This document shows, piece by piece, positions 45,568-60,358 of a DNA stretch of 64,000 nt. Within the stretch, counting starts at the first letter, position 1. Each line of letters opens with the position of its first letter. The position numbers and the translations under genes were made by a program. Source of the stretch: Spirochaetales bacterium (GTDB taxonomy: Bacteria; Spirochaetota; Spirochaetia; Treponematales; Treponemataceae). The stretch lies in NCBI GenBank assembly GCA_003252395.1, contig QKEL01000011.1:1-64000 (forward strand), read 5' to 3'. The notes beneath the pieces are model-generated. The model was given only the letters and a program-made list of their open reading frames with translations. It had not been told where the DNA came from and did not search any database.

Positions 45568-46308
45568 GTGAAAAGACTCCCCTGTTCGATAATTCTGTGC
45601 CGTCCAGAAGAAAGCGGCAATGTGGGCTCGGTATGCAGAGCGATGAAGACCATGGGCTGCTATGATCTGAGGATCGTGGGCGAAAAGGGAAGCTATGACG
45701 AAGAGCGCGTCAGGATCATGTCGGTTCACGCCTTCGATATCTGGCGGGAAGCCCGCTTCTTTCCGCCGACCGTCGACGGCTTAACCAGCGCCATGGCCGA
45801 TTGCGCCGTATCGGCGGGAACCACGCGCCGGATGGGGCAAAAAAGAAAATCGTGGGGCATGACCCCCGACCAATTCGCGAACCTCGCGCGGGAAACGGGC
45901 AGCAACGGCACGATAGGCCTCGTGTTCGGCAATGAACGGACGGGATTAACGGACGAGGAGTTAGCGCGGTGCGCCCTCGCCGTCAATATCCCCTCAAACC
46001 CGGATTTTCCTTCCTTAAACCTTTCTCACGCCGTGCAGATCATGACATATACCCTCTTTCGCGCCTTCGACGAACGGAAGCGGGGGTACGATCCCGTCTC
46101 GCTGGAACGGCTTGCAGGGGGTATCCGATCGATAACCGACAACATAGACAGAATGGGGCTATACCGAAAACCGGGACTGGAAGGCAACGCCCGGTTTCTC
46201 CAAGGCATTCTCGAGCGGGCCCAGGTATCCGAGGGAGAACTCACCCGGCTTGAAAAGCTGTTCCAGCGCATGGCTTGGATTAAAAGCGAATCTGCTCGGG
46301 ATAAATGA
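45568..46308 (+). CDS. TrmJ/TrmH-family RNA 2'-O-methyltransferase
   Basis: This 246-aa SPOUT methyltransferase has an N-terminal RPEESGNVGSVCRAMKTMG. The knot motifs follow: LVFGNERTGLTDEEL (motif II) and VNIPSNPDFPSLNLSHAVQI (motif III), typical of TrmJ, which methylates the ribose of residue 32 in tRNA. The GTG start is chosen because TTGACA-N17-GAAAAT ends exactly 6 nt before it; the in-frame ATG 18 nt upstream lies within the promoter. It is convergent and overlaps the sigma-54 activator gene by 29 bp at the 3' ends. Confidence 0.87.
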   Translation: MKRLPCSIILCRPEESGNVGSVCRAMKTMGCYDLRIVGEKGSYDEERVRIMSVHAFDIWREARFFPPTVDGLTSAMADCAVSAGTTRRMGQKRKSWGMTPDQFANLARETGSNGTIGLVFGNERTGLTDEELARCALAVNIPSNPDFPSLNLSHAVQIMTYTLFRAFDERKRGYDPVSLERLAGGIRSITDNIDRMGLYRKPGLEGNARFLQGILERAQVSEGELTRLEKLFQRMAWIKSESARDK

Positions 46309-47398
46309 CTTCCCCCTCGCAACCCGACGCCGCCCGCGCAAGGCAGCCGAAGAGCTGGCGAACGTTTCCCGGCCAATGGTATCCGTACAGCTTGTCCAGG
46401 GCGTTCGACGACAGCACCTTATTCTGCCCGTTCAGGCAGGAAGCCGCCAGCTGGGGAATATCTTCCCGGTGATCGCGTAGCGGCGGTATTTCGATCCGTA
46501 TCACGTCGAGCCTATAAAAGAGATCGGCCCGGAAAGCGCCGTCGCCTACCAGCGCGGACAGGTTCCGGTTGGTGGCGGAAATGAGCCTGAAGTTGACGGG
46601 GATCGATTCCCGGGCGCCGACCCTCGTTACCTCGCCCTCTTCCAGCACCCGCAACAGCTTGGGCTGAAGGGCGGGGTCCAGCTCCCCGATCTCGTCCAGA
46701 AAGGCCGTCCCGCCGTCCGCCTGCTCGAAGAGCCCGGGCGCGTCGACCGCATCGGTAAACGCGCCCCTCATGGTGCCGAAAAGCAGGCCGTCGGCCAGGG
46801 CAAAGGGCAAACAGCTCACGTTTATCGCCTTAAAGCGGCCCGTGGAGGCCGCGGAATGCCGGTGCAGCAAGCGCGCGACCAAATCCTTTCCGCAACCGGT
46901 TTCCCCGCTGATAAGAACGGGGTCGCGACGCGGCCGAAGCCTGACGATTTCGCTCCTGAGACGGGCAATCGCCGGGCTGGAACCGAGCAGGATATCGGCC
47001 AGGGAATCGACTTCGCGCCGGGAAAGGTCGGGGGACAACGCGCAGGCGTCGAAGAAGCGTTCAATCCGTTCCCGAAGCGCGGGAAAATCGTAGGGTATGT
47101 GAAAGTAGCCGCAGGCGCCAATGGATCGCGAGTATTCAAGAAAGCAAAAGGAATACTCGCGGCTGAGGATAAAAAGGGGCGGGCGGCGGGGGTTGGCGTT
47201 CAGGTCGGCCAATAGGTCAAGGACCCATACGCCCGTCAACGCGATATCGAACAGTATGAAATCAAAGGTTTCCTCGAAGATTAGCGCCACGACGCGGTCG
47301 GGCGCCGAGGGAACCACGATTGTCCATTCTCCTTTCGACTCGTACACGAGTCGCCTGGTGTCCGACGCAAGATGAGTTACGTGCAAGACCTTTTTCAT
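46280..47398 (-). CDS. Sigma-54-dependent activator with degenerate receiver and no DNA-binding domain
   Basis: The 372-aa product has an N-terminal receiver-like domain (1-115). Asp51 remains in ILFDIALTG, but the acidic pair is missing and the usual Lys site is His (GYFHIPYD). The NtrC-type AAA+ domain (about 138-370) has Walker A GETGCGKD (165-172), the sigma-54 contact loop GAFTDA (212-217, GAFTGA in most), Walker B TAFLDE, and ATNRNLSALV. It ends right after the AAA+ lid (WPGNVRQL), with no Fis-type helix-turn-helix. H. pylori FlgR and chlamydial CtcC share that truncated form and activate from solution. Confidence 0.9.
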   Translation of the reverse strand: MKKVLHVTHLASDTRRLVYESKGEWTIVVPSAPDRVVALIFEETFDFILFDIALTGVWVLDLLADLNANPRRPPLFILSREYSFCFLEYSRSIGACGYFHIPYDFPALRERIERFFDACALSPDLSRREVDSLADILLGSSPAIARLRSEIVRLRPRRDPVLISGETGCGKDLVARLLHRHSAASTGRFKAINVSCLPFALADGLLFGTMRGAFTDAVDAPGLFEQADGGTAFLDEIGELDPALQPKLLRVLEEGEVTRVGARESIPVNFRLISATNRNLSALVGDGAFRADLFYRLDVIRIEIPPLRDHREDIPQLAASCLNGQNKVLSSNALDKLYGYHWPGNVRQLFGCLARAASGCEGEVIYPEQIRF

Positions 47399-59537: not shown

Positions 59538-59615
59538 CAACCTATTTTATACCATTTTTGATATACGATTCCAGTCCATGGCGCATCGAGACCCAGATGA
59601 AAAAAGGGGATGTGA

Positions 59616-59667
59616 ACAATGTGTGTTATTTTGATACAGATAAGATGGATATTTTGATACACATTGT
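59616..59667. promoter_or_regulatory. Candidate upstream activating site (inverted plus direct repeats)
   Basis: A perfect 9-bp inverted repeat (ACAATGTGT, 59616-59624; ACACATTGT, 59659-59667) encloses two direct copies of TATTTTGATACA (59627-59638 and 59650-59661, 23 bp apart). It sits about 150-200 bp upstream of the sigma-54 transcription start of hsp20, the usual distance for activator binding. It could equally regulate the divergent 502-aa gene. Confidence 0.5.
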
Positions 59668-59786
59668 CAAAATCTCCCGGTGCATTTACTTCTTCGAGGA
59701 GGTTCAATCGAAATTCATCATTGCCAATTAAAAATATATCTATATAGTATAATGACATAATGTTTTCTGTCTTTTTTTATATCATT

Positions 59787-59802
59787 TGGCATGGCTCTTG
59801 CT
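59787..59802 (+). promoter_or_regulatory. Sigma-54 (-24/-12) promoter of hsp20
   Basis: TGGCATG-GCTC-TTGCT matches the sigma-54 consensus (TGGCACG-N4-TTGCW) with one mismatch; GG (59788-59789) and GC (59800-59801) are 10 bp apart as required. The predicted start near 59813 gives a 70-nt leader with GGAGG before the ATG. Confidence 0.8.
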
Positions 59803-59881
59803 TATATATAAATGTCCGAGAAAAAACGCGGACCCCGATACCTCGGGATTAACCTAATAAACCCTTTTATGGAGGTTCACC

Positions 59882-60316: not shown

Positions 60317-60358
60317 GCGGCGCCGCGGTTCTCCTCCCCGCGGCGCCGCTTTTTTTTT
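60317..60358 (+). terminator. Rho-independent terminator of hsp20
   Basis: A 12-bp GC stem (GCGGCGCCGCGG / CCGCGGCGCCGC) with a 9-nt loop and nine T residues. Confidence 0.95.

Follow-up and report, generated by a model that had tools for sequence, protein, structure and literature searches.

A predicted sigma-54 promoter with a tandem upstream enhancer is common to small heat-shock genes and a group-2 sigma factor in much of the Spirochaetia

Our comparisons indicate that a sigma-54 promoter with a tandem enhancer upstream is common to small heat-shock genes and to a group-2 sigma factor, here called sigma-X, in much of the Spirochaetia. The gene from which we argue is hsp20 in the window (the whole 64,000-nucleotide stretch of DNA that was analysed), which is part of contig C6 of a 3.41-Mb, 15-contig spirochaete genome (G000) whose nearest named relatives are Spirochaetales and Treponema metagenome bins. 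We consider it highly probable that hsp20 has a sigma-54 promoter activated by an AAA+ protein on tandem palindromes that would also drive a second hsp20 operon and sigma-X, a TP0519-type regulator being the most likely such protein. The features on which this proposal is built are collected in Table 1.

Small heat-shock genes are usually controlled by sigma-32 or by repressors and, like the earlier note on this DNA, we infer from a sigma-54 promoter that hsp20 may respond to a different stress or nutrient input. The -24/-12 element that the note had picked out, TGGCATG-N4-TTGCT, is present as described and lies 80 bp ahead of the hsp20 start; it matches TGGCAYRN4TTGCW exactly, is one base off the textbook TGGCACG and has its GG and GC at the exact spacing of 10 bp. 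It is also the only exact TGGCAN6TTGCW in the 64-kb window. Genome-wide, where scoring was by pattern search only, exact TGGCAYRN4TTGCW occurs at 9 sites as against 5 for a reversed-pattern control, so a single -24/-12 site is weak evidence by itself; the hsp20 site stands above chance because it is conserved in relatives. RpoN, whose absence would by the note have refuted the idea, is encoded in the genome (C2:250647-251135; PF04552, E 7.7e-51; a 478-aa ORF).

Table 1. Observed and predicted features at the hsp20 locus (window coordinates).
Feature	Position	Strand	Basis
9-bp inverted repeat, arms ACAATGTGT (59616-59624) and ACACATTGT (59659-59667)	59616..59667	.	arms overlap the outer half-sites of both palindromes
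Candidate activator site, copy 1, palindrome TGTGTTATTTTGATACA (TGTRTYA-N3-TGAYACA)	59622..59638	+	exact match; conserved in relatives
Candidate activator site, second and degenerate copy, ATGGATATTTTGATACA, offset from copy 1 by 23 bp	59645..59661	+	sequence; +23 offset
Predicted sigma-54 -24/-12 promoter element TGGCATGGCTCTTGCT	59787..59802	+	pattern match and conservation in relatives
Predicted transcription start	59812..59813	+	predicted from the C of GC at -12
5'UTR hairpins GTCCG..CGGAC and CCCGA..TCGGG	59814..59847	+	folding
Ribosome binding site GGAGG	59871..59875	+	read from sequence
hsp20, small heat-shock protein, 142 aa	59882..60310	+	Pfam PF00011 HSP20, E 3e-22
Intrinsic terminator, GC-rich hairpin then T9	60317..60358	+	read directly from sequence

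The check that the earlier note had suggested, conservation of the repeats and of the -24/-12 element in related genomes, came out positive for both. We collected the upstream regions of hsp20 orthologs (n = 32) and compared them with dinucleotide shuffles: the -24/-12 element is exact in 27 of the 32 promoters and has at most one mismatch in 31/32 (0.6% of shuffles), and the palindrome is found with at most two mismatches in 28/32 (0.8% of shuffles). For sigma-X, the -24/-12 element is exact in 22/30 promoters and within one mismatch in 29/30 (again 0.6% of shuffles), the thirtieth having an exact element that adjoins the start codon and falls outside the scanned cut; a palindrome within two mismatches was seen in 23 of the 30, as against about 1% of shuffles. 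It is only degenerate in some family members (hsp20 of L033 and of G032, and several sigma-X promoters of family f4).

With regard to the upstream region, the earlier note had described an inverted repeat enclosing two TATTTTGATACA direct repeats. Both are there, the direct repeats at 59627-59638 and 59650-59661, but what relatives conserve is a 17-bp palindrome and not the outer 9-bp arms, and a pair of such palindromes makes a better description of the candidate enhancer. The palindrome is mostly TGTGTCA-WWW-TGACACA, and TGTGTTATTTTGATACA is the sole exact match to TGTRTYA-N3-TGAYACA in the source genome. The best offset for a second copy is 23 bp over the 32 hsp20 promoters and 40 bp at sigma-X. 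Ahead of the window's hsp20, 125-165 bp separate the repeats from the -24 element, and over hsp20 and sigma-X promoters together the palindrome lies 72-251 bp upstream of it, mostly 105-170. Upstream activator sites of sigma-54 promoters are typically found 80-200 bp from the start, and the spacing and distance of the palindromes fit an enhancer for an AAA+ activator and not an operator. There is a likeness here to the upstream activator sequence of NifA, TGT-N10-ACA, in that both are palindromic TGT...ACA enhancers of sigma-54 promoters; the spirochaete site differs in being TGT-N11-ACA with fixed TGTGTCA/TGACACA arms.

Palindromes of 17 bp are also typical of dimeric repressors, and stress genes are often under repressor control. 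It could be argued on these grounds that the palindrome is the operator of a stress repressor, with the -24/-12 element driven by an activator from elsewhere and control exerted mainly through de-repression. We think this very unlikely, as the -24 element is never overlapped by these sites, which are found 70-250 bp further upstream and come in pairs of fixed spacing, all of which points to enhancers and not operators. Furthermore, a search of the genome for CIRCE (TTAGCACTC-N9-GAGTGCTAA) at up to 3 mismatches gave no match, and control of hsp20 by HrcA/CIRCE was rejected for this reason.

A further line of evidence comes from the hsp20 mRNA leader. Over their first 50 nt, hsp20 UTRs fold with a median z of -3.1 relative to shuffles, whereas sigma-X UTRs and a control stretch both come out at about 0. 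In the hsp20 mRNAs of relatives the strong stems mostly begin within 4 nt of the start predicted by the -12 element, and these 5'-end hairpins are conserved but divergent in sequence; the UTRs do not align. The position of the hairpins is thus indirect support for the predicted hsp20 start. They sit at the 5' end with GGAGG mostly outside strong stems, and an Rfam search of the hsp20 5'UTR gave no family match at gathering (RNA thermometer, ROSE/fourU); possibly they stabilise the mRNA. These observations also bear on the idea that transcription of hsp20 starts from a sigma-70-type promoter within the AT-rich stretch, TTGCCA-16-TATAGT at 59721-59748 being one example, and that the sigma-54-like element is incidental. 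A scan did return four sigma-70-like matches over both strands where 1.2 were expected, but these are weak matches in AT-rich sequence, and it would be hard to explain why the sigma-54 element is conserved at no more than one mismatch in 31/32 promoters or why conserved hairpins begin at the start that it predicts. We therefore hold this explanation to be extremely improbable, while allowing that hsp20 may have an additional, secondary sigma-70 promoter.

The same arrangement recurs elsewhere in the genome and in the class. In the source genome a palindrome with at most two mismatches together with an exact -24/-12 element marks three promoters: hsp20, a tandem hsp20 pair on contig C3 (the second hsp20 operon; C3:1561 and C3:1741), whose promoter type is kept in two relatives (L283 and L284), and sigma-X (C2:124143, 124183 and 124001), which is divergent from groES. 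A composite search for TGAYACA-N110-140-TGGCAYRN4TTGCW in 395 Spirochaetia genomes matched 91 genomes, the control giving 2 matches. Among the 30 loci listed from this search the downstream gene, assigned by inspection, could be called in 24: 15 were sigma-X, 7 hsp20, 1 PspA-like and 1 unclear. When the exact palindrome was searched for in 59 genomes there were 51 among the matches listed versus 3 for the control, many of them before hsp20 or sigma-X; exact palindromes in G045, G039 and G018 look like chance occurrences, being inside genes or without a -24/-12 element nearby. Taken together, support for sigma-54 control of hsp20 comes from: (i) the presence of rpoN; (ii) the conservation of both elements in relatives; (iii) their recurrence at other chaperone and sigma-factor promoters and (iv) the class-wide composite search. 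By these comparisons the earlier observation of a predicted sigma-54 promoter ahead of hsp20 is confirmed, and its control by sigma-54 with an upstream enhancer is strongly supported.

Two other sets of sites came to light in these searches. PspA is a classic sigma-54 target, and a PspA-like gene in L257 (G249) was also matched by the composite search. In the source genome two divergent sigma-54 sites (G000:C7:167699 and 167860) lie between MRP-type ATPase/dinitrogenase-cofactor-type genes and a gene for a small Gly-rich protein, with a PAS-AAA+ activator alongside.

Sigma-X is a 287-aa group-2 factor of the sigma-70 family with orthologs across the order. Curated models put it between RpoD and RpoS and far under RpoH, with no cut-off passed: it scores 171 bits against the RpoH model TIGR02392 (cut-off 323), and higher with the RpoD and RpoS models yet still below cut-off. 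No RpoH-type factor was found in the source genome. The sigma-54 element stands ahead of sigma-X in 29-30 of 30 genomes and also ahead of a second sigma factor gene, predicting sigma-54 transcription of both. For this second sigma-70-family factor (G000:C2:29344; L069:6498-7331, minus strand; 277 aa) the sigma-54 site is exact (TGGCATGGTTCTTGCT), and no palindrome goes with it or with the other -24/-12 sites of the lineage. In two trees the RpoS of Borreliaceae (for which we took the small-genome family f24) groups with the C2:29344 factor and sigma-X forms its own clade, with support of 100/98 and 100/100, although branches are long. We regard this placement of Borreliaceae RpoS as tentative; on the same trees, long branches included, sigma-X as the ortholog of Borrelia RpoS is unsupported. 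The rpoS promoters of f24, presumed Borreliaceae, have the -24/-12 element and no palindrome. In a T. pallidum-like genome (G030; L295) the sigma-X ortholog, which sits on a long branch in the tree, is preceded by the exact sigma-54 site TGGCATGATATTTGCT; no palindrome was found upstream of it, and no hsp20 match was found in that genome.

As to which protein acts at the palindromes, the source genome has seven clear AAA+ sigma-54 activators (PF00158). The likely candidate is an NtrC-type response regulator of the TP0519 type at C1:408340, with a receiver, an AAA+ domain carrying GSFTGA and a Fis-type HTH (PF00072, PF00158, PF02954). Its gene comes directly after that of a PAS-domain histidine kinase that shows no obvious membrane segment; both belong to a murG-cvpA-holB-HK-RR operon, which the T. 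pallidum-like G030 also has. We favor this regulator because, in the activator repertoires of 20 relatives, it is the only DNA-binding type present in every sufficiently complete genome (G028 has a frameshifted copy), the assignment being one of co-occurrence and elimination in about 20 genomes of one family; that it binds the palindrome we infer. The most telling cases are G023 and G032, in which the only activators are this regulator and an AAA+ protein that lacks an HTH, and yet the palindrome and -24/-12 element are kept at sigma-X; G015 lacks the HTH-less protein. A protein of the latter kind (372 aa, AAA+ sigma-54 activator-like, without a DNA-binding HTH) is encoded in the window at 46280-47398 on the minus strand, next to a WecG/TagA-like gene, an arrangement also seen in G023, G032 and G022. 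Whether the activator operon might regulate itself was considered as well, since G011 and G025 have exact copies of the palindrome just ahead of murG. These copies, however, lie partly within the tail of the gene before it or across the murG start, and close relatives have only degenerate versions, other genomes none; they were rejected as chance matches and left uncounted.

It could also be that the elements are real and that their activator is another AAA+ protein, such as the GAF-AAA+-HTH protein linked to rpsA (C1:472737); the TP0519-type regulator would then act at other promoters. The GAF protein is likewise widespread in the order and its Fis-type HTH is strongly conserved. However, its ortholog was not found in G023 or G032 (97-99% complete), both of which have the palindrome and the -24/-12 element at sigma-X, and we judge this alternative to be unlikely.

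The scenario that we hold to be likely, built on the TP0519-type regulator, is as follows. RNA polymerase with sigma-54 (RpoN) would transcribe hsp20 from the -24/-12 element, and an activated AAA+ enhancer-binding protein, probably the response regulator at G000:C1:408340, would occupy the TGTGTCA-WWW-TGACACA pair at 59622-59661, loop to the closed complex and open the promoter with ATP. The same activator protein would turn on the second hsp20 operon and sigma-X, so that a single signal might raise the level of holdase chaperones immediately and, by way of sigma-X, that of a second set of genes. Given that the regulator is paired with a soluble PAS histidine kinase, the signal would be intracellular.

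There is precedent for parts of this scheme. The small heat-shock gene ibpB of E. coli reportedly has a secondary sigma-54 promoter beside its sigma-32 control (a third heat-shock regulon), to which hsp20 is alike as a small heat-shock gene with predicted sigma-54 control; in the present case, however, neither an RpoH-type factor nor CIRCE was found, and the element is common to a sigma factor gene across the class. In Borrelia burgdorferi, Rrp2 and RpoN activate rpoS, by an account in the consulted part of PMC1976401 without need of an enhancer. The likeness to our model lies in an NtrC-type regulator and RpoN switching on a stress-type sigma factor of the sigma-70 family in a spirochaete (PMC1976401, PMC2940757, consulted portions). 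The differences are that Borreliaceae RpoS belongs to another sigma lineage than sigma-X, that palindrome pairs occur here and none at Borreliaceae rpoS promoters, and that the consulted portions of PMC1976401 and PMC2940757 do not name small heat-shock genes among the direct targets. Sigma-54 promoters have also been predicted computationally ahead of small heat-shock genes: the consulted part of PMC12316311 gives a GroEL/IbpA/DnaK cluster with predicted sigma-54 regulation enriched in Planctomycetota and Bacteroidota, names Spirochaetia for other clusters and describes no activator site or sigma cascade. In the literature searched, this prediction for other phyla was the nearest, and the consulted texts did not describe a sigma-54 regulon of hsp20 and sigma-X in Spirochaetia.

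What we describe is apparently an old and undescribed stress regulon of the Spirochaetia, in which, over a large part of a bacterial class, the same sigma-54 enhancer design would serve a chaperone and a stress-type sigma factor. With only slightly better than even confidence, we propose that an ancestral, class-wide regulon had one TP0519-type two-component activator that, through TGTGTCA-WWW-TGACACA enhancers, directly controlled a group-2 sigma factor as well as small heat-shock chaperones, and that sigma-54 control of sigma-factor genes persisted in host-restricted lineages, which lost the enhancer (and, in G030, hsp20 as well). This suggests that the RpoN-RpoS cascade of Borrelia may be one remnant of a wider placing of sigma factors under sigma-54. 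Stress control in spirochaetes is poorly known, and our analysis puts forward a concrete regulon, activator and DNA motif as candidates; with these, the role of the conserved TP0519/TP0520-type two-component system becomes testable.
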